A DNA stretch of 31,969 nucleotides. Origin: a virus. The notes under the pieces were generated by a model. That model was not told where the DNA came from and searched no databases. It saw nothing but the letters and a program-made list of their open reading frames with translations. The DNA lies in IMG/VR virus record IMGVR_UViG_3300025108_000226, positions 1 through 31,969 of that record. One strand, 5' to 3'. Position 1 is the stretch's first letter, and every line of letters begins with the position of its first letter. The position numbers and the translations under genes are program-made. Positions 3,237 through 31,969 of the stretch are shown piece after piece.

Positions 3237-6200
3237 TTATGTTTTGGAGATAAATGATGTCACGACAGATGACAAGAAATCACCTGCAGCGCTACTGTAA
3301 GCTGAGTCTTCAGAAGCATCTGCTTGTATCTTAGCTTTAGCTAACTCATGGTCACGGTCCATTTGTTTCTCAGAGCTAGTCCATGCAAAATCCATAAGGT
3401 CACGCTCTTGCTGCCACAACTCAGCTATACCCTGTATAGTCAAGTTGTTCTGTGCCATAACTTCAGCCATGTTCGCTTCATTAAGTGCTGCAGTATTAGC
3501 TGTAGCTATCTCCTGCCTCCATTTAGTATTAGCTTGTGCGACAACCAGTTCATTCTGTGCGTTAAACAAATCACGTTGGTTATCAAGTTCAGCTTGAAAC
3601 TTAGTCATAGAGTTCTCTTCACCTGCGTTAAACTGTTCCATAGCATTCTCTTGAGCTATGTTAAACTGCTGTACGTTAGTTGACATAGTTTCATAGAACT
3701 GATTAACTTGATTGATGCTCTCAGCGTTAAACTGTAGTTGTGCATTCTCAGCCGCTTGATCTGTGAATATGCTTTGCACCAAAGTCTGTGTCTCAAACAT
3801 AAGAGCTTGCTGCTCGTTGTCTAAGTTCTTCATATCCATTTCTAAGAAAGCCTGTGCTTGCTGTGCTGCAGCCTGTTGATTATTACTAAGGTTAGCCATG
3901 TCAACATCAGTTAGAGCAGCACAGTCAGCTAAAAGCTTAGCTTGTTTGTTTGACAGATTAGCTAAGTCTACAGTCTGAGTAAGTTGTGCATTCTGCAAGG
4001 CACGAGATTGCTCTGCAGTAAAGTTCATATTAGCAATCTCAGCAATACGCTCTGCTTTAATAACATTAACTTGTTGCTTATTAGATAGCTCCTGACCTTT
4101 CATTGCAGCTTCTATCTGAGCATTGGCTAAAGCAGTCTGTTGACGGTTGGACAGGTCAGCCATATCAATAGTCATCTTGTTTGACATATTGAATATACGT
4201 GTTTGCTGTTCGTTGTTGAGTTCTATCTCACGCTCAGACACTTGGTTAGCAACATTGAAAAGAGCAGTCTGCTGTTTGTTATCTAGAGCACGTCCTTCCA
4301 TAGCCGCCTTAGCAACAGCATCTTGGATAAACGATTGTTGTCTATTTGTAGCCTCCTGCATGTTGGCTTCAAACGCTTGTGTACTTTCGATCACAGCCAT
4401 CTGCTGTTCGTTGGTAAGCTCCTGACCCATCATAGAAGCTTTAACTTGTAAGTTAGCCAAAGCAGTTTGTTGTGAGTTTGACAAGTTAGTCATCTCTATC
4501 TCTAGATTTTGTGTAGACTTCAAGATAGATGTTTGCTGTCTATTCGTAAGGTTGATATCATTTACTGCAGCATAACGTGCAGCATTAGAGATAGCTACGT
4601 TAGAACTAATGTCTAGCTCTTGACCTAACAGTGCCGCTTTAAATTGTGCAGTAGCAAGTACAGCTTCTTGTTCGTTGCTCAAGTTCTTTAATTGCAGATT
4701 AGCATTGTTCATACTGTTCTGTAAGTTTACGGTCTGTTCGTTTGATAGATTCTGTAAAGCAAAGTTCTGTGCTGCAGCAGCATTAGCTATAGCAACTGCC
4801 TGTTCGTTACGGACATTTTCCATTTCCATGTTTGCAAATGTAGCCGCATCTGCTGCTGCTATAGGTATAGCGGATTCCATAGCGGCCTGAATAATAGCTG
4901 CACCTGCCATAGAACTTGCACCTAATCCACGGGCAACCAAAGCGGCCTGTGCTTTACGTATACCACCTGCAGCCCAAGCTGGTGTACCATCGTTAAACTG
5001 ACTCATCAGCTTTTCCATATGGAAGTCAACAGTAGACTTAGCGGAAACAGTTCCTACTGCTGCCTTAGCTTCTAGCTGTTGAGTAAATGTGGCTGAAGCA
5101 GCTTTAGCAGTGGCATCCTCATTAAGAGCTTCTAGGGTTTTAGCAGTTACAATAACCTCTTCACCATTGAGAATATCATTTACATCAATTATCTCATCTT
5201 TTTCAATAACGTCTGTTTGTTCTGCAGTAATCTCAGGTACATACTCAGATTGTTTTTCTTCTTCAGATGCATACTCAGTGAAGTTTGCAGCGTCTTTTAC
5301 TTTACTGTCTTCAACCTTTGCTACATCTGTAGGTGGTAAATTGTAGTCTACTTCAGCAGTTGCTTCAGGTGTTTTAGTATCGTACTTAGCAGCATCAATC
5401 TCATCAACTTCGCCTTCAAACTGCTGCGCCTTAGATGTTGTGTACGCATCAAATAATGCAGCATCAGGAAACTCTTCTGAGTCCTGCTTTAGTTTACCTA
5501 CTATCGTACCTGTCTGAATTGCTTTCTCAACAGACGCTGATGCTTTCTCGTAAGCAGCTTTAAGAGTTTCGTAGCTTTCTGTATCGCCTTCAGCTAGGGC
5601 AGACATCATACCAGCCTGAAGTCTATCACGTTCTCCATTGATACGTATTACATCGTCTTCACTGAGAACTAGATTGTATGACTCTAGCTTAGCAGGATCT
5701 TTAAACTCTCCTGCTAGTTGTGCTAAATCACCTGGTGTCATCTGCGCTGCTGTCATCTTAGATTCTTCAGACAGCGTTCCTTTAGCGAACTGCCCTAACT
5801 CATCTAAGGCTTTTATTTTCTCCTCTGATTTAACTGCAGTGTATGTCTCTGCAGTATCCTTTATTGCATCCTGTTCAATCTGAGTTTGTTGTGCTGCATA
5901 GTAATCATCTATAGATTTTTGAACATTTTTTGGTAAAGGCATTACCATAGGAATAGCGTAAGGGTAAGGTGGATATTTTTCGGAGCGCTCTTCACGAGAT
6001 AAACCCTGCAGATAAGCTGCTGCTTTTTTTACTTTAGGGTCTGCTGCCTTACCTGCTGACTGAGCTTGCTTAACTAAAAGCGTAGCTGCATCAGCAACCT
6101 GACCTGTGCTGCTATCAATAAGCTGATTGTCTTTAACTTCCAAGCCATACACAGTAGGTTGAGAAAGAAGAGAACTAGGTGACGTAATAGATTTACCTAG

Positions 6201-23423: not shown

Positions 23424-25558
23424 GTACCAGTAAATCCTTGCTCACCCGGTGTAGGCGCAGTACCTGTACCAATATTACCACCCCCAGCGCCTGTGGTGTC
23501 AGCTACGCCAACCCCTGCTTGTTCTGGTGCTGCTCCGGGTGTAGGTGGTACGGGTGGACCTTGCTCTGCACCTGCAGGGGGTTCAGGAGGTGTAGTAAAC
23601 TTTTTAAGTATCTCTGCCTGTATAGCAGCGTCACCTAAGGAGTTTGTCACCTTATCAGGATCTAGGTCCATGCTCTTAGCTATCTCACGAATAATGTAGT
23701 CAGACTTTACAAACGGCATAAGCGCTGGGTTTGAAGCTACACCCATGAACTGCATCAAGCGCTGACTGCGTACTTCGTTAGCCATCAAGCTCTCTGTACC
23801 TGAAGCCTTAACTTCCAGATCACCTTTTATTTCCTTATCAAAGTCAAACTGCATATTAAACGCAAAGAACGCCTTACCAATAGGACCAATAAGATAGTCA
23901 TCTACGTTCTTGACAACATTTCGTATAGAGCCGTTAGCTGCAGACATAAGCATACTAATCCCAGAAGCAGTCCTTCCCACTCCTGAAACACCTGTCTGCC
24001 CGTGTGCAAACGATGGAAAACCTGTACTCTCATCAGCCAATACTCTCGCTTTATCAAACAGTTGCATGTTCTCGTTAGCTACGTTAGGAAACTTAGTTCC
24101 AAAAATGCCTTGTCCTGGTGCACCCCCCTGACGCCTAAATATTTTTCCAGGGTACACAGATAAGTCCTGCCCAGGCACCAAATTAGTTTCGTCTACTTCG
24201 ATTATAAGATTACCAGAAAGTGCAGCATTATCTATCGCCATACGCATGAACCCATTCATAAGGGTTTGTGTGTCATCCATATTCTCCGCAATACCTACCC
24301 CAAAGAATGAGTAGGGGTTTAATTCGTATGGTACAGCGTAGTAAGGAATACGTGTAGGCTTGAACGGATTGAGTACAAGACGCAGTACCTGACCATTACA
24401 GATCCATACATTTACGTTTACTTGCTCTGCATTTTTAAGTTCACGAGGAATGCGTACACCGTTCTGTTCAAGAATGTCTGTGTCTACATAACCCCAAAAT
24501 TCTAGGACTTCATAACGTTCAGGATAGCCACCTTCTTGTGCGCCATCCTCCATGTCGTGTTCCCAATACTTTTTGTCATACGACTCGCCCATGCTTATTG
24601 CTTCATCAATAGATTCTTTTCTAAAGAAAGGACGTGACTTTAAACCACGCATTTGAGAACGTGTCATACGGTGACGTTCTACTACATACTCTGCCTCATC
24701 CATGTTGTAAGCATCTGGGTCTGGATAAAAATTCCACACTGATACATGGCTAGTAGAGGGTACTGTCTTAACCGTAGGATCGTAATTACCTTCTTCATTC
24801 CAGTTAGGATACTCCTTGTCAATAGCAAACGGGCCTTTCATTATACCCGTTCCAAAGAGAGCCATCTCAAAAGAAGTATGGCGAAGCTGTTTATTAGCTC
24901 CGCTTTCTTCTAACTGGTCATGTATTTTCTTTTCCATCTTCTTAGCTGCAACCATAGCAGGATGGAAAGTAACAGTATCTTGAGTGGTACCTGGACCTTC
25001 TATGACCTTATCACCTACAGCCTCAAGCTTCTTCTGCAGTGATCCCATACGTTTCATACGGTCATACATTGTTTCGCCTGGCTTCAGTTTTTCATCAGGA
25101 TCAAACAGAAACTTTACTTTAGGCTCTTCTTCAAATGCACCACGTAAAGGGTCCATAGCTTGTTCAGCTTGTGGGTTTACATTAATGTGCATAGACTCAG
25201 CTACACCCTCAGGTAATGTTGTAGGGTTTACTGTTAGAGGAAAACGTGAACTACCAAAGAGTACATCTACTATTTGACCGTAAGCTGCCAACGTTTTAGT
25301 CTTAGTAACTTTAACAAAAATACGAGACTTTTCAGTTTCTGTAAATTGTACATCGCTTCCATACAAACCTCTGTAGTTTCTATAAGAGCGCAGCCATCTA
25401 TTCTCGTCTGAATATCGTGCGTCCTCTGCACGTTTAAATCTAGACTGTACGTAAGACACTACACTAGATGCATCTAAGTCATCACCGTCTTGAATAACAG
25501 ACACTTCATCTGTCTCAAACAGTTCGCCTTGTTCGTTTACATTATCTTCTTCTGCCAT
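23420..25558 (-). CDS. Portal protein
   Basis: This is a 712-residue protein matching the size of large podoviral portals (P22 gp1 is about 725). It has an acidic N-terminal tail and a helical start containing 'RFKRAEDARYSDENRWLRSYRNYRG'. The central region includes SVWNFYPDPDAYNMDEAEYV, a wing/stem-type feature of this family, and GIAENMDDTQTLMNGFMRMAIDN. After residue 650 follows a Pro/Gly-rich, probably disordered tail. The protein forms the dodecameric DNA channel at the head vertex and the docking site for the terminase and the adaptor. It starts 4 nt after the large-terminase stop. Confidence 0.9.
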   Translation of the reverse strand: MAEEDNVNEQGELFETDEVSVIQDGDDLDASSVVSYVQSRFKRAEDARYSDENRWLRSYRNYRGLYGSDVQFTETEKSRIFVKVTKTKTLAAYGQIVDVLFGSSRFPLTVNPTTLPEGVAESMHINVNPQAEQAMDPLRGAFEEEPKVKFLFDPDEKLKPGETMYDRMKRMGSLQKKLEAVGDKVIEGPGTTQDTVTFHPAMVAAKKMEKKIHDQLEESGANKQLRHTSFEMALFGTGIMKGPFAIDKEYPNWNEEGNYDPTVKTVPSTSHVSVWNFYPDPDAYNMDEAEYVVERHRMTRSQMRGLKSRPFFRKESIDEAISMGESYDKKYWEHDMEDGAQEGGYPERYEVLEFWGYVDTDILEQNGVRIPRELKNAEQVNVNVWICNGQVLRLVLNPFKPTRIPYYAVPYELNPYSFFGVGIAENMDDTQTLMNGFMRMAIDNAALSGNLIIEVDETNLVPGQDLSVYPGKIFRRQGGAPGQGIFGTKFPNVANENMQLFDKARVLADESTGFPSFAHGQTGVSGVGRTASGISMLMSAANGSIRNVVKNVDDYLIGPIGKAFFAFNMQFDFDKEIKGDLEVKASGTESLMANEVRSQRLMQFMGVASNPALMPFVKSDYIIREIAKSMDLDPDKVTNSLGDAAIQAEILKKFTTPPEPPAGAEQGPPVPPTPGAAPEQAGVGVADTTGAGGGNIGTGTAPTPGEQGFTGT

Positions 25559-25562
25559 TTAA

Positions 25563-27149
25563 CTAGTATCCAAATGTTGAATCTGCAGCTTGAAAACCTG
25601 CATTGTGTGATACAGGATTATAATCCCATAGAGAACTTCTAGGTCTTGTCATTATACCGTATCTGATAGCATCGTATAAGTGATCTTCAGCATTAGTATC
25701 TACATCTTCTGGGTTTCTTTTGTCTAAAGGTATGCTTGGTAGTTGAGCTATAGAATGAGTGCAAGTCGAAAAGAACACCAACCTTGGCTCATCAGTGTAC
25801 TCATCCACTTGCAAGCGGCGGTGAAGCTCGTTCTTACCTGCAACCCTTGAGCCTCGTGAACGGTCTGAAGGCCTCCACCTACATCCCTTTTGATTCATCT
25901 GCTCAGCCAAGGAAGGGCCAGTGTCACCTCTTTTGTGCCACAGGGAGCTATCCAACACGCCGTACCTTATACTACCATCTTCAGCTTCCGCTTCAAGAAT
26001 CATGTCAGCTAGATCAGTAGCTGTAACTTTAGAACAATATAACTCTCTGTAGACAACAAGCTGCTCAGAGGGTGATACAGCAAACCAGACAACGCCTGTG
26101 AAACTTCCGTAGCCGTAGTCGCAAGCTCTAAACTTAGTCCACCCTGAGGGAATTTTAAAAGGGTCCACGACATGTATGGATCTGTTCCATTCAGGAAATG
26201 CTGCACCTTCGTTGACATCCCAATTACCTTCTAGTAGTTGCTTTCTTTGATGCTCTGGTAGTGACAGAAGCATAGCTTCATAGTCACCACTATCAGCTAG
26301 GTACGGATTATCAAAGAGGCTGGCAGGTATAAACCTTCTTTTGAACAGGGGTTGTCCAGCTTTACTATGTCCTGCAGGGAAGCGTAATACCTCACCAGTC
26401 TCTATGTTCGTTGCCCAAAAAGATGTATTAACAGGTGATGGGTCAATGAACATTTTTTTAACCCAAGCATGTCCTACTCCACCTGGGTTAGTTGTAGCTC
26501 GCATATACAAACCTAAGTCTTTGTTTGCACTACGTAATCGGGATCTCATGTAATCCCACGCAAAGGGTGACTGCCACTGCGTCAACTCGTCAAACGCTAC
26601 ATAGTTAAACGCCTGTCCTTGATAGCGCATAACGTCTGTGTCTCTGTCCAAGTACGACATCCAAAGTGTGCCGCCTCTTGGTGTAGTCCACTGGCTTTTA
26701 CGCTCAGACCACTTTATCCCCGGTATAGCCTTAGGGTACAACTCTTGGCTTTTCTGTATAAGCTCTCTGAGTTCCTCTGTCGTGTGACGTACAAGAAGCC
26801 CACTAAAGTCAGGACTGTTCATATTACGTAAAGGGTCAGCTAGTGTAGCGTAACTCTTACCCCCACCCGCTGCTCCACCATATAGTACCTCACGTTCACC
26901 TGAAGCTAAGTACTCTGTCTGTGGCCCAGCGTTAGGCTTAAAGACAATGTTCTGCGATTCCTCTACATCATACTCAGGTGGTTTGACCTGCGCTGGGCTG
27001 GGTGTCGCTACTATCGGTTCCGTCTTCTTCGTAGACGAAATAGCCTGTGTAGTTTTTTTCGAGCGCTTCGATTTGTTGTAACGCTTTTTCGAGCCGCTTG
27101 GTGTAGTAGCGCTTAATTGCAGCAAGACGCTTTCTTTTTCTTTCGACAT
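25563..27149 (-). CDS. Terminase large subunit
   Basis: This is a 528-residue DNA-packaging motor. The ATPase part has Walker A GGAAGGGKS (91-99), Walker B YVAFDE (183-188) and a coupling motif ATTNPGG (218-224). The nuclease part has acidic residues at D344 (RACDYGYG), D400 (GVLDSS) and the EDHLYDAIRYG segment (488-498). The ATG at 27149 has an AGAGAG site just upstream. The first 60 residues are a Ser/Thr/Lys-rich tail coded in DNA that also encodes the end of the upstream HTH protein in another frame. There is no later good start before the ATPase domain, so the long overlap appears real. Confidence 0.93.
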   Translation of the reverse strand: MSKEKESVLLQLSATTPSGSKKRYNKSKRSKKTTQAISSTKKTEPIVATPSPAQVKPPEYDVEESQNIVFKPNAGPQTEYLASGEREVLYGGAAGGGKSYATLADPLRNMNSPDFSGLLVRHTTEELRELIQKSQELYPKAIPGIKWSERKSQWTTPRGGTLWMSYLDRDTDVMRYQGQAFNYVAFDELTQWQSPFAWDYMRSRLRSANKDLGLYMRATTNPGGVGHAWVKKMFIDPSPVNTSFWATNIETGEVLRFPAGHSKAGQPLFKRRFIPASLFDNPYLADSGDYEAMLLSLPEHQRKQLLEGNWDVNEGAAFPEWNRSIHVVDPFKIPSGWTKFRACDYGYGSFTGVVWFAVSPSEQLVVYRELYCSKVTATDLADMILEAEAEDGSIRYGVLDSSLWHKRGDTGPSLAEQMNQKGCRWRPSDRSRGSRVAGKNELHRRLQVDEYTDEPRLVFFSTCTHSIAQLPSIPLDKRNPEDVDTNAEDHLYDAIRYGIMTRPRSSLWDYNPVSHNAGFQAADSTFGY

Positions 27150-27444
27150 CTACTCTCTTCTTCAGACCATCGTGAGTTATACTTTTACCTGATTGAGTAG
27201 TCAACCATGCTGATACCTGCCTGAAAGAGTACTGCTTTAAGTGCTTCTTAGCTAACTCTAACAGTTCTAACTCTTTAGGTATAGGGTTCAGCCATTCCTC
27301 ATCTTCAGGATCAACCTCATAGCCGAAAGGTATATAGTTGCTAGTACGTGGTATGCGTTGCCAAAGCTTTACCTTAAAAGGTACTTTGGGTAACATCCAG
27401 TACTCACTCTGTAGTGGGCGCTCTTTACGTAGCCTCAGAAGCAT
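26974..27444 (-). CDS. HTH plus coiled-coil protein, alternative small terminase candidate
   Basis: This is 156 residues from the ATG at 27444. A later ATG at 27396 (140 residues, starting MLPKVPFKVKLWQRIP) is an equally possible start, and neither has a strong ribosome site. The middle has an HTH-like segment (YSFRQVSAWLTTQSGKSITH then DGLKKRV). It is followed by a basic long helix with RKRKRLAAIKRYYTKRLEKA, suited to oligomerisation. It sits exactly between the TerS-like and TerL genes and overlaps TerL by 176 bp. I recall such proteins before the terminase in marine phages, sometimes labelled resolvase-like HTH. A DNA-recognition role in packaging is inferred. Confidence 0.7.
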   Translation of the reverse strand: MLLRLRKERPLQSEYWMLPKVPFKVKLWQRIPRTSNYIPFGYEVDPEDEEWLNPIPKELELLELAKKHLKQYSFRQVSAWLTTQSGKSITHDGLKKRVDVERKRKRLAAIKRYYTKRLEKALQQIEALEKNYTGYFVYEEDGTDSSDTQPSAGQTT

Positions 27445-27802
27445 CTGTGTTCTTAGGGGGAAGTATAAACAAACCACCGCTTGACTCTACTGTCACCCTC
27501 TCAGTTTTTACAATACCTGCACGGTCTAGGATCTGTCCTGCAGCTACCATACGCTCCTTAACACCTAACTGGGTAGGATCGTCCAAAGCACTCGCATATG
27601 CCACTGCAGCCTTAGGTCCAACCCGTGACATGTATGTTTTAGTTGCATCAAAGATTTCATCTTTCAAAGCCTCTACAATAGATGCGGTAGATGATTCAGG
27701 GTTATACCCTGCAAGTTTCTTAGCTAGTACAACGTCACCACCAGCCTCTTCAAAGAGAACTTCTAAGAACTTACTTTGTTTTTCTGTAAGGTTTCGTTTC
27801 AT
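27425..27802 (-). CDS. Terminase small subunit-like protein
   Basis: This is a 125-residue protein starting 'MKRNLTEKQSKFLEVLFEEA' and continuing through a Gly-Asp-containing turn to AKKLAGYNP, the HTH pattern of small terminase subunits. A long helix 'IVEALKDEIFDATKTYMSR' and 'GVKERMVAAGQILDRAGIVK' follow, the latter being a conserved phrase of this family. It should bind the packaging site and hand the DNA to the large subunit. Its ATG overlaps the previous stop (ATGA), and AGGA lies upstream. Confidence 0.8.
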   Translation of the reverse strand: MKRNLTEKQSKFLEVLFEEAGGDVVLAKKLAGYNPESSTASIVEALKDEIFDATKTYMSRVGPKAAVAYASALDDPTQLGVKERMVAAGQILDRAGIVKTERVTVESSGGLFILPPKNTDASEAT

Positions 27803-28047
27803 TTTACTTTCCTATGGGCTTTGGTTTTAGCTGCAATCTTCTTAGGCTGAGCCACATGCTGCTTACCTGCCTTAGTGCCTTTTCGTTTAGCTCTGGTTGT
27901 AGCGGCGTACTCAGAATCGCTAAGAGACTTAATAGCCTTAGCAGGTAGATAACGCTCACCAGTTTTAGCACTAGGCTTACCACTCTTAGTACGCCACTTC
28001 TGTTTAGTCCAAGACTTTAAACTCTTTTGAGATTTAGCAAGGGCCAT
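27799..28047 (-). CDS. Small basic protein, DUF5872-like
   Basis: This 82-residue protein is strongly Lys/Arg-rich. The stretch SLKSWTKQKWRTKSGKPS followed by TGERYLPAKAIKSL and YAATTRAKRKGTKAGKQ matches my memory of DUF5872-type proteins in marine phages and some large viruses. The function is unknown. Charge and size suggest nucleic-acid binding or virion packing. The ATG shares one base with the stop of the previous gene (TAATG). GGGGGC lies upstream as a ribosome site. Confidence 0.8.
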   Translation of the reverse strand: MALAKSQKSLKSWTKQKWRTKSGKPSAKTGERYLPAKAIKSLSDSEYAATTRAKRKGTKAGKQHVAQPKKIAAKTKAHRKVK

Positions 28048-28232
28048 TACTTATAGCCCCCGCCTTTTGCTTTATACTGCTTTGCAACCATCTGTGCTTT
28101 CCTGGCACTCCATTGTCCGGGCTTTCCACCTTTCCCACCAGCTTTAACGGAAGCAACGAGGCGCTTCCGCATACTAGGCTTAGTATAATTACCCGCTGCA
28201 TTAACCGTAGACTTTTTGCCTGACTTCGCCAC
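28047..28232 (-). CDS. Small basic Gly/Lys-rich protein
   Basis: Translated from a GTG at 28232 this is a 61-residue protein (reads VAKSGKKSTVNAAGNYTKP, then QWSARKAQMVAKQYKAKGGGYK). I chose this start because GGGGA lies 6 nt upstream. A longer reading from 28265 (GTG) or 28250 (ATG) lacks a good site. Similar short proteins occur next to the DUF5872-like gene in marine phages, as I recall. It overlaps the end of the DUF1127-like gene by 32 bp and the next gene by one base. The function is unknown. A DNA-binding or virion-packed peptide is plausible. Confidence 0.75.
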   Translation of the reverse strand: MAKSGKKSTVNAAGNYTKPSMRKRLVASVKAGGKGGKPGQWSARKAQMVAKQYKAKGGGYK

Positions 28233-28341
28233 GACTGATCCCCATATCATGCAGCTCTCTGTCACTCAAATTCATGAGTATCCAGTAGTCTGCTCTTCGT
28301 TGTTGATTCTCTTGGAACCGCTTTAATAGTTTAGTAAACAT
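28201..28341 (-). CDS. DUF1127-like small protein
   Basis: This is a 46-residue gene: MFTKLLKRFQENQQRRADYW followed by ILMNLSDRELHDMGISRGEV and RQKVYG. The 'LSDRELxDxGISR' core is the hallmark of DUF1127 (YjiS-like) proteins, common in Alphaproteobacteria, where small members have been linked to RNA-related regulation. It has the strongest ribosome site of the small genes (AAGGAG, 8 nt before the ATG). That site lies inside a 9-bp inverted repeat with an extended -10 promoter at its far side, so it is probably regulated on its own. It overlaps the next gene by 32 bp in another frame. Confidence 0.85.
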   Translation of the reverse strand: MFTKLLKRFQENQQRRADYWILMNLSDRELHDMGISRGEVRQKVYG

Positions 28342-28344
28342 TGC

Positions 28345-28375
28345 ACTATCTCCTTTTATTAGGTGCGGAGATAGT
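28345..28375 (-). promoter_or_regulatory. Inverted repeat masking the ribosome site of the DUF1127-like gene
   Basis: ACTATCTCC (28345-28353) and GGAGATAGT (28367-28375) are perfect 9-bp complements around a 13-base loop. In leftward RNA from further upstream, the 3' arm holds GGAG of the ribosome site and would be paired. The far arm touches the -10 of the local promoter, so RNA started there would lack the masking arm. Confidence 0.75.
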
Positions 28376-28382
28376 TATACCA
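28374..28382 (-). promoter_or_regulatory. Extended -10 promoter before the DUF1127-like gene
   Basis: The minus strand reads TGG-TATAAC (28382-28374), a TGn extended -10 with 5 of 6 consensus bases. No good -35 is seen 15-19 bp upstream, as is usual for extended -10 promoters. The predicted start is near 28367, about 26 nt before the ATG. Confidence 0.5.
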
Positions 28383-28422
28383 CAAATGTTAGCGCTATAC
28401 TACATACAATATTGCATACCCG

Positions 28423-28788
28423 TTATCTACCAGGGTTATAGTATTCTTTTCCTGACATAGTAATACTTAAAGTACCACCCCCGTTAAACGCTACTATTTT
28501 GTCACCTCCATGCATATAAAAAACGTTACCCCCTTGAATAACATCATATACATCATTTCCTGCAACTTGTTTAGCGTTTATGATAGTATGGTACGTAGTA
28601 TCTTCTGCGTGATACCACTGTACAGAAACATTGTCATTTGAAGAAGCACCATTAGTTATATGCAGAAAGTCTACTTCTGCGTCAAAGTTACTAGGGCACG
28701 TATAAAGAACGTTACCGTTAGAACCCCCAGAAGTAGCAGTGATGCTTAGAGATTTAGTTACTGTACCATATGAACGGGCAACTACCAT
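28423..28788 (-). CDS. Beta-sandwich protein of unknown role
   Basis: This is a 121-residue protein of alternating hydrophobic/polar strands (VTKSLSITATSGGSNG, VLYTCPSNFDAEVDFLHITN, GGTLSITMSGKEYYNPGR). It resembles in style the small structural protein at 13848-14180 and other marine phage beta-sandwich virion proteins. Its place among the small basic genes, upstream of the terminase, is unusual for a tail protein. Its ATG directly follows the stop of the preceding gene (TAAATG). It might be a minor head or decoration protein. No function can be assigned. Confidence 0.75.
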   Translation of the reverse strand: MVVARSYGTVTKSLSITATSGGSNGNVLYTCPSNFDAEVDFLHITNGASSNDNVSVQWYHAEDTTYHTIINAKQVAGNDVYDVIQGGNVFYMHGGDKIVAFNGGGTLSITMSGKEYYNPGR

Positions 28789-29046
28789 TTACTTTTTATT
28801 CTTTAAGTTGTCACGCTGCTCTTTTACCATACCACCTAAGTTGTACGTCATTACTTTACCGCCTTTAGCGTATGCTTTCTTCTTCATCATACCACCCATA
28901 GCGTAACCTTTTTTCTTAACCTTACCGCCATCTTTCATGTAACCCATTTTATTACGTACATTAGTTGGTAGCTTTTTAAGTCCTGTTTCGTTAGCAGTAG
29001 GTTCCTTTAACTTACCGCCCATAGCGTAACCTTTTTTCTTCATCAT
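28789..29046 (-). CDS. Small Lys/Gly repeat protein (KKKGYAMGG repeats)
   Basis: This 85-residue protein has four related units: KKKGYAMGGKL, KKKGYAMGGMM, KKKAYAKGGKV and TYNLGGMV. The repeats are visible in the DNA as an identical 23-bp sequence at 28895-28917 and 29018-29040. GAGGGA lies 6 nt before the first of two adjacent ATGs. I recall such 'MMKKKGYAMGG' proteins in many marine phages, usually near structural genes and without known function. The repetitive cationic Gly/Tyr sequence suggests disorder and nucleic-acid or capsid-interior binding. Confidence 0.8.
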   Translation of the reverse strand: MMKKKGYAMGGKLKEPTANETGLKKLPTNVRNKMGYMKDGGKVKKKGYAMGGMMKKKAYAKGGKVMTYNLGGMVKEQRDNLKNKK

Positions 29047-29049
29047 AGT

Positions 29050-29727
29050 CTATCCCTCGTTATATAAATTGTTGAACACTCGTTGCGTATCCCATACATA
29101 ACCTACGTCTTCCTTTGAGTTGTACGTATGCTGGTTAGGCTTAAAGTCAGGAGCACCTTCGCCTGTCTCAAACCACGCAGGGTGAGTTACTCTCACTCTA
29201 TTATTGGGTAATGCAACCATGTTACCTGTATAAGGTCCAGCGTCTAGCAGTTCTAAAACGTGTGACTGCTTATGCTGCGCTGGGTCATCTGCTACTTCAC
29301 TGTCTGTGTAGTCAACTGTAAAGTAATACTTCGCAGGGTAAAACTCCCCGTCAACCTTAGCTATCCACGGTGCAGGACTTGCACGTTCTAGCTTATATAC
29401 GGAATGCCAGTGAGACATACAATCCCACGGCTGGGCCAGATAGGGTGGTAGCTCATCAGGCCATTCTTCTAAAGGTGTATCAGCTACTAAAGCGGTAAGG
29501 GGCAACCTAGCCCACATAGCACCACCATGAACGTTGTGGTCTTCTTCCGAAAGATCTGACTCACAACCCGTAAAGATAACCTGAAAGCTCAACGTCCTGT
29601 TGGGCAGAGTCGTTACTCCTACAACCATACAGTGTAGGAAATGACCTTGGTAGTCTTCTAAGTTCTTCGTGTATTCACGGCGTACCCACGCTTTGAAGTA
29701 CGGTATGCTACTCGTTAAGTAAGGCAT
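29050..29727 (-). CDS. Conserved phage protein of unknown function
   Basis: This is a 225-residue protein, Trp/Tyr/His-rich and apparently globular. It contains EYTKNLEDYQGHFLHCMVVGV, then GAMWARLPLTALVAD, PYLAQPWDCMSHWHSVY and NRVRVTHPAWFETGEGAPDF. It has no membrane span, signal peptide or obvious catalytic motif. I recall similar proteins in cyanophages and other marine phages but know of no assigned role. There is no clear ribosome site before the ATG. The preceding gene stops 5 nt upstream, so re-initiation is likely. Confidence 0.75.
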   Translation of the reverse strand: MPYLTSSIPYFKAWVRREYTKNLEDYQGHFLHCMVVGVTTLPNRTLSFQVIFTGCESDLSEEDHNVHGGAMWARLPLTALVADTPLEEWPDELPPYLAQPWDCMSHWHSVYKLERASPAPWIAKVDGEFYPAKYYFTVDYTDSEVADDPAQHKQSHVLELLDAGPYTGNMVALPNNRVRVTHPAWFETGEGAPDFKPNQHTYNSKEDVGYVWDTQRVFNNLYNEG

Positions 29728-29732
29728 ATAAG

Positions 29733-29981
29733 TTAAGCTATAATAAAATTAACTATCTGACCGTCAGGCTTACGTAGCTTATTAGGGTCAGGGTTATAGG
29801 CGTACATCTGGTTGACTAACTTCAAGTCCTCTACAGGTGTGTCAGGTGTGACTAGGTTAGGCTCTGGCTTCTCTTCTACGTTATTCCTGTGTGACCTATC
29901 TTTATCAGCTTTCTCAAACACTATGTTCTCGTGTGTCTGGAAAGGCATATTAGGTAACGGGAAGTGAGATATTAAAGTCAA
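29733..29981 (-). CDS. Small hypothetical protein, TTG start
   Basis: This is an 82-residue protein from the TTG at 29981. An ATG at 29948 would give 71 residues but has no ribosome site. The TTG overlaps the stop of a possible small upstream gene (TTGA), with GAGAAG 8 nt before it, suggesting coupling. The C-terminal half (VTPDTPVEDLKLVNQMYAYN, then PDPNKLRKPDGQIVNFIIA) looks like the conserved part. The middle is charged and probably disordered. The function is unknown. Confidence 0.65.
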   Translation of the reverse strand: MTLISHFPLPNMPFQTHENIVFEKADKDRSHRNNVEEKPEPNLVTPDTPVEDLKLVNQMYAYNPDPNKLRKPDGQIVNFIIA

Positions 29982-30079
29982 TGCTTGTTCTTCTCTGCTG
30001 TTTTCTTCTGAAGGTATCGCTGCTTCTTCAGCTTCTGTATTGGACGTTTGCGTTTAGGTAGCTTCTTGCTAGTCTTCAA
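29978..30079 (-). CDS. Possible 33-residue basic peptide, TTG start
   Basis: This short frame fills the gap between its neighbours. It starts with TTG at 30079 (AAGGA 8 nt upstream) and reads KTSKKLPKRKRPIQKLKKQ then RYLQKKTAEKNKH. Sixteen of 33 residues are Lys or Arg. It overlaps the end of the upstream gene by 11 nt and its stop overlaps the next start (TTGA). That packing supports a real gene, but the short length and TTG start leave doubt. Confidence 0.4.
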   Translation of the reverse strand: MKTSKKLPKRKRPIQKLKKQRYLQKKTAEKNKH

Positions 30080-30341
30080 TCACAGGTTCCTTAGTGCCAA
30101 ACACTCTCTCGTATGTCATATCGTTGCTGTACTCTTCAGCCCATCTATTCTCAGTAAACGTAGCAAACTGTATCAGAGCCTCTAGATCAATATCCATAGA
30201 GTTCATGTAAGTCTTCATATCTACAACATCTTGCTGTAATATCTCAATAGTGTGAGCCTGTTTTGATACCCACCACACAGCAGCTACAAGCTGTATAGCC
30301 ATCGCTGCTACAAGTGCTACAGGAAGTTTTAAATCACTCAT
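30069..30341 (-). CDS. Small N-terminally anchored membrane protein
   Basis: This is a 90-residue protein with one N-terminal membrane span (about 7-25, LPVALVAAMAIQLVAAVWWV). A short helix (HTIEILQQDVVDMKTYMNSM) and an acidic end follow. The topology, with an inner-membrane anchor and an outward helical domain, resembles inner-membrane spanins or superinfection-type proteins, but it lies far from the other lysis candidates. The ATG follows the preceding stop by one base (TAGTATG). The function is unassigned. Confidence 0.75.
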   Translation of the reverse strand: MSDLKLPVALVAAMAIQLVAAVWWVSKQAHTIEILQQDVVDMKTYMNSMDIDLEALIQFATFTENRWAEEYSNDMTYERVFGTKEPVIED

Positions 30342-30342
30342 A

Positions 30343-30621
30343 CTACCACTTTACTTTATCAGCCCAGTATGCTGCGCTAGTCTTTCCTTTAGAAATGTTC
30401 TTAGCATGGCGAGCCTTAAAAGACTTCTTACGTGCTTTCTCTCCTGCTGACTGAGGGTTTTTACCTGCACCACTAACTCCTTGCTGACCGAAGCGAATAG
30501 TCTTAATAGTGTTGCCTTCTTTAGCTACAACTACGTGTGACTTCTTAGGATGGCTAGGTGTACGCTTTGGTTTGTTGAAACCACTAACACCTGCACGTTT
30601 TAGTCTAGGATCTTTAGCCAT
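30343..30621 (-). CDS. Small basic protein, DUF6321-like
   Basis: This is a 92-residue protein. It reads MAKDPRLKRAGVSGFNKPKR, then TPSHPKKSHVVVAKEG, IKTIRFGQQGVSGAG, KKSFKARHAKNISKGKTSAA and YWADKVKW. I recognise this pattern (TPSHPxKSHxVxAxEG, IRFGxQG, SFKARHxKNIxKGKxSAAYWAxxxKW) as the DUF6321-type family found in marine phages and some large DNA viruses. The function is unknown. The strong positive charge suggests DNA binding. It overlaps the previous gene by 8 nt. Confidence 0.8.
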   Translation of the reverse strand: MAKDPRLKRAGVSGFNKPKRTPSHPKKSHVVVAKEGNTIKTIRFGQQGVSGAGKNPQSAGEKARKKSFKARHAKNISKGKTSAAYWADKVKW

Positions 30622-30871
30622 ACTCTCGTTTTCTCTTAGGGTCTAGTACTTCATAAGCCTGTAAGTGACCCTCTAAGTACATAGCACGTTCAACGTGGTC
30701 CAACGTGTACCACTCACCTGTACGTTGATATATAGCTTCACGTACATAGAACACATCCGACTTAGGTATATGTACTTTATGTAAAGCACGAGGGTTGTTA
30801 TCTGCTATAGCTTCATAAAAGTCTTCTATAACAGTTTCACTTGCATATAGTTGTACTGGTTTCTTAGTCAT
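30614..30871 (-). CDS. First gene of the leftward block, hypothetical
   Basis: This is 85 residues from the ATG at 30871. An in-frame TTG at 30877 is possible but is part of a TTGACA and lacks a ribosome site. The protein is mainly helical and charged (YASETVIEDFYEAIADNNPR, then KSDVFYVREAIYQRTGEWYT and LDHVERAMYLEGHLQAYEV). It is the promoter-proximal gene, about 170 nt downstream of the predicted start for the leftward promoter. No family is recognised. Its position would suit an early regulator or anti-host protein. Confidence 0.7.
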   Translation of the reverse strand: MTKKPVQLYASETVIEDFYEAIADNNPRALHKVHIPKSDVFYVREAIYQRTGEWYTLDHVERAMYLEGHLQAYEVLDPKRKREYG

Positions 30872-30897
30872 TGTCAAGAGTTATTTCATGTAAAAGA

Positions 30898-31001
30898 CGT
30901 ATTACAGAGATAAATGTATAAATGTAGGTAGTGTAGGAGAGGAGATACAGGATGGGAGAGACAACACTAACTGTATATATACAAATATTCTCTGTAATAC
31001 G
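30898..31001 (-). promoter_or_regulatory. 13-bp perfect inverted repeat in the leftward mRNA leader
   Basis: CGTATTACAGAGA (30898-30910) and TCTCTGTAATACG (30989-31001) are exact complements. Inside them GTATA (30916-30920) and TATAC (30978-30982), then AGTGT (30930-30934) and ACACT (30964-30968), can also pair. It lies wholly downstream of the predicted start (near 31041) and ends 27 nt before the first gene, so the leader RNA can form a long hairpin. Confidence 0.7.
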
Positions 31002-31008
31002 CTATAGT

Positions 31009-31069
31009 AGTAACTTTATAGTTATACGTTATGTAGTTACTTAGAGGATAGTAACATATTTGTAGTTAC
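31009..31069. repeat. Alternating AGTAAC/GTTACT sites over the leftward promoter
   Basis: AGTAAC at 31009-31014, GTTACT at 31036-31041, AGTAAC at 31050-31055 and GTTACG at 31064-31070 (core GTTAC 31065-31069) form an alternating inverted array. The third copy overlaps the -10, the fourth the spacer and the second the predicted start point. This is a plausible set of operator half-sites. Confidence 0.5.
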
Positions 31070-31076
31070 GTGTCAA
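31048..31076 (-). promoter_or_regulatory. Leftward sigma70 promoter for the structural block
   Basis: On the minus strand TTGACA (31076-31071), a 17-bp spacer and TACTAT (31053-31048, 4 of 6 matches) are seen, with a TGT extended -10. The predicted start is near 31041, giving a leader of about 170 nt before the first gene. Confidence 0.7.
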
Positions 31077-31107
31077 GGATTAAATACATAATGTCTATTA
31101 TTTGTTA

Positions 31108-31171
31108 GTTTAACTCTATGTTTAACTATCTTAGGTTCATATTTTCTTTGTTTTAACTTTAATGTTTAACT
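31108..31171. repeat. Four GTTTAACT-type direct repeats
   Basis: GTTTAACT occurs at 31108-31115, 31120-31127 and 31164-31171, with a one-base longer copy GTTTTAACT at 31150-31158. Start-to-start spacings are 12, 30 and 14 bp in very A+T-rich DNA. They may be binding sites for a regulator or initiator. Confidence 0.5.
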
Positions 31172-31248
31172 TAGGGCTGCTACTGCTACGCAGTTTTACA
31201 CATTTTACCCCCTGTGTCAATCCCTATTCGTACAAACTGCAGTAAAAA

Positions 31249-31285
31249 GTGATTATATTGTAACAATTGTAACAAAACGTGATTA
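31249..31285. repeat. Tandem TTGTAACAA flanked by GTGATTA repeats
   Basis: Two exact adjacent copies of TTGTAACAA (31258-31266 and 31267-31275), each a dyad TTGT-A-ACAA, are flanked by GTGATTA at 31249-31255 and 31279-31285, exactly 30 bp apart. The arrangement looks like a compact protein-binding cluster. Confidence 0.55.
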
Positions 31286-31329
31286 AGATTAACGTGTGTG
31301 TACGTCTTTGTGTATGACCCTTTTGAAAA

Positions 31330-31366
31330 ACCCCGTGTGTTGCAGAGTATGTATATATAACGGGGT
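31330..31366. promoter_or_regulatory. ACCCCGT/ACGGGGT inverted repeat
   Basis: ACCCCGT (31330-31336) and ACGGGGT (31360-31366) are perfect 7-bp complements with a 23-base A/T-rich loop including TATATATAA. A G/C-rich stem in A/T-rich surroundings could be a hairpin or binding site. No T-run follows on either strand. Confidence 0.4.
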
Positions 31367-31406
31367 AACCCCCAGGTGGCCCTCGCCCCACCCCTTGCAA
31401 CTATAG

Positions 31407-31462
31407 GTAGAGTAGCACACTTTTAGGTTGTATCGAGCAGCTTTACTCTACTATAAAGTGTG
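31407..31462. promoter_or_regulatory. Two interleaved 8-bp inverted repeats
   Basis: GTAGAGTA (31407-31414) pairs with TACTCTAC (31444-31451). CACACTTT (31416-31423) pairs with AAAGTGTG (31455-31462). The arms alternate (A1-B1-A2-B2), a pseudoknot-type order. TTTTAGG occurs at 31421-31427 and again at 31463-31469. Confidence 0.5.
31428..31457 (+). promoter_or_regulatory. Possible rightward promoter
   Basis: TTGTAT (31428-31433), an 18-bp spacer and TATAAA (31452-31457). The -10 is good (5 of 6) and the -35 weak (3 of 6). It overlaps the interleaved inverted repeats and would transcribe toward the rightward frames. Confidence 0.35.
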
Positions 31463-31490
31463 TTTTAGGCTGTGCTTAGCTAGTAAACCA

Positions 31491-31528
31491 TTGAAAACAT
31501 TAGAAAAACAGACTGATAAGCTATCAGT
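31491..31528 (+). promoter_or_regulatory. Possible rightward promoter with overlapping palindrome
   Basis: TTGAAA (31491-31496), an 18-bp spacer and GATAAG (31515-31520) make a fair promoter. The perfect dyad ACTGATA-AGC-TATCAGT (31512-31528) covers its -10 and start point, where a repressor would act. Confidence 0.4.
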
Positions 31529-31635
31529 GTCAGCGTAAAAAGAGCAATAAAGTGTTATGTTATAACAAACGATGCAGGAAACAGCATAAGGGATGCACAA
31601 CCTAAAGATGTAAAAACCTTTGTGTATTTATAATG

Positions 31636-31665
31636 TATATACCCAAAAATACCCCTACCCGTCAA
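31636..31665 (-). promoter_or_regulatory. Possible second leftward promoter
   Basis: On the minus strand TTGACG (31665-31660), an 18-bp spacer and TATATA (31641-31636). It is a moderate match upstream of the main leftward promoter. A TATAAT on the plus strand (31629-31634) nearby lacks a good -35. Confidence 0.3.
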
Positions 31666-31720
31666 AAAAGTTTCACACATTGCATTTTTTTGCTTGCGTC
31701 CGTCTTCATCATTTGCAAGT

Positions 31721-31834
31721 ATGAGTTATCGAAAGCGACAAGGCGAAACGCACAAGGTAAGACCTAGCACAAGCCAGCGTCCTAGACGATCAAGCCGGAT
31801 AAAAGACCCGCATAGAAGACAGACTAAAAATTAA
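31721..31834 (+). CDS. Possible 37-residue Arg-rich peptide
   Basis: ATG at 31721 to TAA at 31832-31834. It reads MSYRKRQGETHKVRPSTSQR then PRRSSRIKDPHRRQTKN, with twelve Arg or Lys residues, and is probably disordered and nucleic-acid binding if made. No ribosome site is visible upstream (GCAAGT only), so confidence is low. The DNA strand bias changes here to purine-rich on the plus strand, in keeping with rightward coding. Confidence 0.3.
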   Translation: MSYRKRQGETHKVRPSTSQRPRRSSRIKDPHRRQTKN

Positions 31835-31837
31835 GAC

Positions 31838-31969
31838 TTGACGACAGAACGACTAAATGCAAGACTGAATACACAGAACGAACGCAGACTAGATAAAGGC
31901 GCTAGTCAAAAGACTGCTACAGCGTTGGGCTTGGCAACCCATTACTACAAGTCAGTGGACTCTGACGTG
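31838..31969 (+). CDS. Start of a rightward gene, cut by window edge
   Basis: The frame is open from a TTG at 31838 to the right edge (44 codons, no stop), in the same frame as the short peptide before it. It reads LTTERLNARLNTQNERRLDK then GASQKTATALGLATHYYKSV and DSDV. The 'ATALGLxxYYxx' phrase resembles the N-terminus of phage HNH or zinc-ribbon proteins of the 'ALGLxxYFTGKPCxxGH' type. That comparison is tentative, since the Cys/His part would lie outside the window. There is no clear ribosome site. The start could also be elsewhere. Confidence 0.4.
   Translation, partial: MTTERLNARLNTQNERRLDKGASQKTATALGLATHYYKSVDSDV

Follow-up and report, generated by a model that had tools for sequence, protein, structure and literature searches.

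A conserved hairpin in the leader of the late operon of HMO-2011-type marine phages probably forms the core of a regulatory RNA of the phage, whose loop would pair with the ribosome-binding sites of early genes and block their translation. The structure is conserved as RNA on the late-sense strand, presents a conserved loop, is accompanied by a promoter-like site and a U-tract, and has its loop complement enriched at early ribosome-binding sites of the phages that carry it. Among the titles and abstract openings of a mostly open-access literature, we encountered no prior description of such an RNA in HMO-2011-type phages, and the main text of the main genomic paper on this group (PMC9038755) uses none of the terms RNA polymerase, intergenic, hairpin, promoter, non-coding or terminator.

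A large hairpin precedes the late operon

The stretch of DNA analysed here (the window) is an IMG/VR virus record of 31,969 bases and covers part of the genome of a marine phage of the HMO-2011 type. Its portal-terminase end (24000-31969) best matches phage CRP-603, with 71.2% identity over 58% of the query, and matches CRP-2 with 70.2% identity over 51% of the query. The leftward genes of the window constitute the late operon, and the complete relatives read have their early and replication genes in the opposite orientation; because the window stops short of its own early genes, early-gene targets were taken from relatives. The first late gene occupies 30614-30877 on the minus strand and encodes 85 aa from an ATG at 30871 (87 aa from a TTG at 30877). 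A tRNA/tmRNA search of the window returned none, and an Rfam comparison of 30300-31969 and 10 related loci gave no family at the curated threshold, the sub-threshold matches being to unrelated families. By eye, two blocks look common to the window and a locus of another clade, L288: TTAAGACTTGAC...AATGCAAGACTGAATACACA...GCAGACTAGATAAAGGCGCTAGTCA, on the early side (about 31826-31910 in the window, about 3570-3650 in L288), and the non-coding GTGTGTTGCAGAGTATGTATATATAACG (about 31334-31361 and about 4220-4250, respectively).

The hairpin spans 30897-31002 on the minus strand and consists of a perfect 13-bp outer stem (30898-30910/30989-31001), whose arms enclose 78 nt, and an interrupted inner stem; no other perfect inverted repeat of at least 13 nt was listed in 30300-31969. 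A preliminary description of this DNA had noted the outer stem, two inner pairable segments, a purine-rich loop and a distance of 27 nt to the first gene. The stem and inner segments are present at those positions and recur in relatives, and the end of the 13-bp stem indeed lies 27 nt ahead of the ATG at 30871. As leftward (minus-strand) RNA, the segment 30880-31020 has a predicted folding energy of -32.2 kcal/mol, compared to an average of -16.55 for its shuffles (z -5.3; equalled by 0/200), while the plus strand gives a z of -4.1, with 1/200 shuffles as good. The loop is purine-rich only when the plus strand is read; in the leftward RNA, the predicted 29-nt apical loop (30963-30935, minus strand), which is the conserved part of the element, is pyrimidine-rich.

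The hairpin is conserved as an RNA structure

Using the first late gene as a query we found 475 related stretches, of which the best 80 were kept. The 78 of these with at least 130 nt upstream, together with the window, CRP-603, CRP-2 and CRP-207, yielded 82 leaders, and in all 82 the predicted fold encloses the sequence TCTCC. This fold comprises only 4 pairs in L050 and is larger in L032, L035, L036 and L037, loci whose 72-nt hairpin was seen in a separate analysis. Upstream of gene 1 in L050, much of the 3' arm of the hairpin is gone, possibly through a natural deletion or an assembly fault. A stricter, anchored search for stems of at least 9 ahead of TTGACA(A/G)T returned 120 records; many represent fragments of a shared contig, and the unique elements number 55, with lengths of 69 to 128 nt. 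Three further leaders missed by the first search (L312, L365 and L366) also have the hairpin.

Twelve isolates were inspected in the fetched end stretch only. CRP-603 and CRP-2 (by scan) and CRP-207 (by fold) possess the hairpin, and none was found in the end stretches of CRP-345, CRP-9, CRP-1, CRP-212, CRP-235, CRP-13, CRP-738, CRP-3 and HMO-2011. The hairpin-less leaders of CRP-1 and CRP-345 (L090 and L088) contain other inverted repeats (GCC...GGCGAG) downstream of the promoter-like site and ahead of the first late gene, which perhaps belong to a different leader RNA.

We examined covariation in three alignments. In A2, which unites the window's clade with a neighbouring clade and contains one erroneous base affecting only pair 1-106, 99.3% of outer-stem cells are paired and two-sided changes occur at 3 pairs (12 cells); in A3 the corresponding values are 99.2% and 3 pairs (5 cells). 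The covariation score and the number of two-sided changed cells in these two alignments were reached by 0/500 shuffles and by no slid control; the count of two-sided changed pairs was reached by 83 and 11 of 500 shuffles, and additional kinds of pair did not exceed the shuffled values. A4 shows no two-sided change and one pair broken in 2/8 sequences. In a strand-blind alignment of the 55 unique elements, G-U (G-T) oppositions outnumber A-C oppositions on the late-sense strand by 171 to 73, and 34 elements lean towards the late-sense strand, 8 towards the opposite strand and 13 are tied. The selected molecule is therefore most likely an RNA transcribed leftward, and this strand asymmetry disfavours the suggestion, made in the preliminary description, that the repeat acts as DNA in an origin.

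A promoter-like site and a U-rich tract flank the hairpin

Upstream of the hairpin, a sigma70-like promoter (P1, TTGACA-17-TACTAT) was recognized at 31048-31076 on the minus strand, with a transcription start predicted at about 31041. Promoter-like matches in this region of the window number 2, which is not above shuffles (4.3). Among relatives, the best sigma70-like match is a TTGACA site whose -10 element ends 42-49 nt before the hairpin in 38/52 unique elements and lies elsewhere in the remaining 14, and the hairpin is kept between the sigma70-like promoter and the first late gene. The proposal of the preliminary description that the hairpin is a regulatory element of a leader RNA thus gains support from compensatory changes among related regions, from the leftward excess of G-U over A-C and from a promoter-like site situated upstream, not downstream, of the repeat; the conditions named there as refuting it, a lack of compensatory changes and a start site downstream, do not overturn it.

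On the 3' side of the hairpin lies a U-rich tract (30887-30896, minus strand), a feature of intrinsic terminators that is weak in the window, where it amounts to one run of 4 U, but is present as a run of at least 4 U in 38/55 unique elements compared to 6.5% of background windows. Beyond it, a block at 30849-30877 on the minus strand, TTGACAATG...GTACAACT (also given as TTGACAATG...GTAcAACTATATG or TTGACAATG...GTACAACTATATG), lies over the beginning of the first late gene. The TTGACAATG...GTAcAACTATATG form is largely conserved among 42 unique sequences, synonymous positions included, and occurs in similar form in the hairpin-less phages CRP-1, CRP-345 and HMO-2011. This block is perhaps a second promoter (P2), a late promoter located inside a coding start.

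This arrangement could also be read as a leader element that acts exclusively in cis, in which P1 transcripts are terminated or attenuated before the late operon, or are released by an antiterminator, and the loop binds a protein. In phage lambda, the terminator tR' follows the late promoter and offers an analogue. Both the U-run behind the hairpin in 38/55 elements and the placement of the hairpin between P1 and the first late gene fit such an element. Intrinsic terminators, however, usually have a short G+C-rich stem and a small loop, whereas the stem here is AT-rich and the loop measures about 20-30 nt, and a terminator scan of the window, which covered loops of 3-8 nt only, did not list the hairpin. 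Two further observations described below, that it is the loop and not the stem that is conserved and that the loop complement is enriched at early ribosome-binding sites, are left unexplained by a purely cis-acting leader, and we regard it as unlikely, if the best of the alternatives.

The conserved loop is complementary to early ribosome-binding sites

Across elements, the loop mostly reads UGU(G/A)UCUCC. Columns without variation among 29 diverse elements are five in the loop, the G, T, T, C and C within GTnTCnnC, plus a single T beyond the loop, and in the elements of the stricter search TCTCC is preceded by TGTG in 31 occurrences, by TGTA in 12 and by other sequences in 16. The complement of this loop motif is GGAGA(C/U)ACA, an extended ribosome-binding site. 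In the window, the loop seed reads UGUAUCUCC (30941-30949, minus strand), the complement of GGAGAUACA, and is complementary to early-gene sites in relatives. The first clue to this relationship was the occurrence of the loop complement before helicase genes, as AGAGGAGACACGACATG in CRP-603 and TAGGAGACATAAGAAATG in CRP-207. Complementarity to several early ribosome-binding sites suggests a small RNA that turns early genes down. The earlier view of a regulatory element in the leader RNA thus stands, with the loop to be read in the other sense, in which it carries an anti-ribosome-binding-site sequence and acquires a prospective role on early genes.

To quantify this complementarity, we counted all GGAG sites located 4-11 nt upstream of an ATG that opens a frame of 30 codons, and recounted them after masking the hairpin, checking strands and keeping a single record for each contig. 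The 74 distinct contigs with the hairpin show ACA directly after GGAG at 70/393 early-strand sites compared to 6/227 late-strand sites of the same contigs (Fisher p 1.7e-9) and to 5/191 early sites of 10 distinct hairpin-negative contigs (p 2.4e-8), p-values that overstate independence because the contigs are related. The hairpin-negative set consists of CRP-1, CRP-345, CRP-9, HMO-2011, L344, L346, L349, L360, L362 and L363; L348 was left out by the one-record rule, L305, L308 and L309, with the late strand unassigned, were dropped from the recount, and CRP-13 and CRP-235, which have no P2 match, were counted apart (ACA at 2/19 and 0/5 sites). L327 was assigned to the hairpin-positive set by hand because its fold had been seen. 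Of 55 trinucleotides seen after GGAG, ACA is the sole one with a one-sided p < 0.01, and a C follows GGAGACA in 25/70 cases compared to 54/323 elsewhere (p 8e-4).

Annotated genes of isolates follow the same pattern. GGAGACA precedes 5/42 early genes in CRP-603, 4/41 in CRP-2 and 3/37 in CRP-207 (together 12/120) compared to 0/29 in CRP-1, 0/38 in CRP-345 and 0/21 in HMO-2011 (together 0/88), which are hairpin-less, and it precedes 2/99 late genes in the former three phages and 1/126 in the latter. The 82 frames behind ACA sites fall into 43 clusters of early genes, unknowns included; by similarity to CRP-603 proteins they comprise helicase (6 contigs), ribonucleotide reductase (3), methyltransferase (3), polymerase (1) and ThyX (1). 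A 74-aa early protein, gpE, was found in 70 loci and is preceded by GGAGACA or GGAGATA in 12/17 hairpin-positive and 0/7 hairpin-negative loci, the other 46 being loci that could not be classed. The tail of the ribosomal RNA itself would favour GGAGGU over GGAGACA.

The correlation has exceptions. Hairpin-positive contigs without ACA sites include G005 (0/18), L365 (0/22) and L366 (0/13), and some ACA sites occur without a detected hairpin in L363 (2/14) and L360 (1/20). GGAGATA, though able to pair with the loop, is not enriched (30/393 hairpin-positive compared to 17/191 hairpin-negative early sites). Duplex energies computed for the loop and early sites share much of their range with those of phages that lack the loop, the early sites of HMO-2011 scoring equal to those of CRP-603, and were less telling than the trinucleotide test. 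Co-change of loop and target is thin: the clade with the UGUAUCUCC loop offers 2 readable early GGAG sites, both GGAGATACA and both from one genome, and a further case is the gpE gene of a related contig, G022, whose loop reads UGUAUCC. If the pairing is real, early sites in the window's UGUAUCUCC clade are expected to read GGAGATAC and not GGAGACAC.

CRP-1, which has no early genes with GGAGACA, and CRP-2, which has 4 annotated ones, share one host strain, and this contrast speaks against a host effect, an argument qualified by CRP-9 and CRP-13, phages of that host with ACA at 2/19 sites each and no detected hairpin. Two scans of bacterial genomes were intended as a host control, of which one found no relative of gene 1 and the other, with the phage ribonucleotide reductase, recovered 8 loci in metagenome bins. 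Contigs binned as Flavobacteria or Neomarinimicrobiota (L380-L384) encode ribonucleotide reductases 73-83% identical to that of the phage and are possibly mis-binned phages. As a host stand-in we used two plasmid stretches of the marine Rhodobacterales M. anthonyi, a small sample and not the real host, in which ACA follows at 2/51 sites. ACA near the Shine-Dalgarno sequence can itself raise translation in enteric bacteria, as reported in PMC3879156, and a role as translation enhancer is another possible reason for GGAGACA sites.

These counts bear on two further explanations. The hairpin could be a general anti-Shine-Dalgarno decoy directed mainly against host mRNAs and serving to take over ribosomes, as its CUCC-rich loop and the similar action of cuckoo-type RNAs in alphaproteobacteria (PMC10746234) might suggest; yet the conserved UGUGU/UGUAU part of the loop reads into the spacer, and the complement is enriched at phage early sites and not in the M. 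anthonyi plasmids, small and imperfect as that stand-in is, making such a decoy improbable. Slightly less probable again is a site where the late mRNA is processed, by RNase III for instance, or a stem that protects its 5' end, with the complementarity due to shared history or to ACA enhancers, for although the stem is long and close to the predicted 5' end, the loop is conserved and loop-matched early sites occur in unrelated genes.

Proposed mechanism and comparison with known systems

We infer a free small RNA that acts in trans and represses late in infection because of P1, the U-tract, the complementarity and the place of the element before the late operon. Transcription from P1 to the U-tract would produce an RNA of about 150 nt, which might accumulate as a free small RNA or as a late-operon leader whose transcription often terminates. 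On its long stem the RNA would present a loop with the seed UGU(G/A)UCUCC, and in several early genes this seed could pair with GGAGA(C/U)ACA, which comprises the Shine-Dalgarno sequence and the spacer. On the simplest account, the loop would compete with the 30S subunit at these early sites and block ribosome loading, which probably would help to shut down early expression while late expression rises. Such an RNA would provide a handle on gene regulation in an abundant ocean group, the HMO-2011-type phages.

The best reading gives the phage hairpin, by analogy, the mode of action of alphaproteobacterial anti-Shine-Dalgarno hairpins. NfeR1, an RNA of the cuckoo/alpha-r14 type, is described in PMC10746234 as carrying CCUCCUCCC in hairpin loops on variable stems and as silencing ntrB by pairing at the translation initiation region. 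The phage hairpin likewise has an anti-Shine-Dalgarno-like motif in an unpaired loop on variable stems, and the exact 9-mer CCUCCUCCC was read by eye in the 8 loops of clade A4. It differs from the published RNAs, so far as they are described there, in being phage-borne, in having one hairpin and not three or four, in its longer stem and in the added UGUGU/UGUAU of the loop. The exact CCUCCUCCC is absent from the window loop and from the rows of A3, and the anchored search, which covered positions next to TTGACA(A/G)T only, never found more than one element per record; because the window lacks the exact motif and multiple hairpins were not found, we do not file the phage hairpin under cuckoo/alpha-r14. 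In Rhodobacter, CcsR RNAs are matured together with a DUF1127 protein (PMC10253847). The window encodes a DUF1127 domain at 28219-28326 on the minus strand, in a 57-aa open frame about 2.6 kb downstream of the hairpin on the same strand. In contrast to the CcsR locus as reported, this frame is not adjacent to the hairpin, and the domain occurs in 23/26 phage records tested, with and without the hairpin, such that we rejected DUF1127 as a hairpin-specific partner.

Multi-target action on ACA motifs near the Shine-Dalgarno sequence is also known from GcvB (PMC3879156), an enteric bacterial sRNA to which we claim no membership for the phage hairpin. The closest likenesses among phage-encoded RNAs directed at the mRNA of a phage are c4 of P1/P7, sar of P22 and OOP of lambda, and c4 pairs around a ribosome-binding site, likely via its loops (PMC12197685). 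According to the same account, phage antisense RNAs mostly act on single phage targets or host genes, and c4, sar and OOP have one phage target each (ant, ant and cII, respectively), whereas the hairpin described here would address many early genes (PMC12197685). In its proposed end it resembles RegA of T4, which represses about 30 mRNAs at translation initiation regions (PMC3014915), with the difference that RegA is a protein and the effector here would be RNA. With a little less than even confidence, we propose that the hairpin is the RNA counterpart of T4 RegA, in which one loop recognizes a word shared across many unrelated early genes and drives the early-to-late lytic switch. If true, a target word common to many early genes would amount to a new level of temporal regulation in lytic phages.
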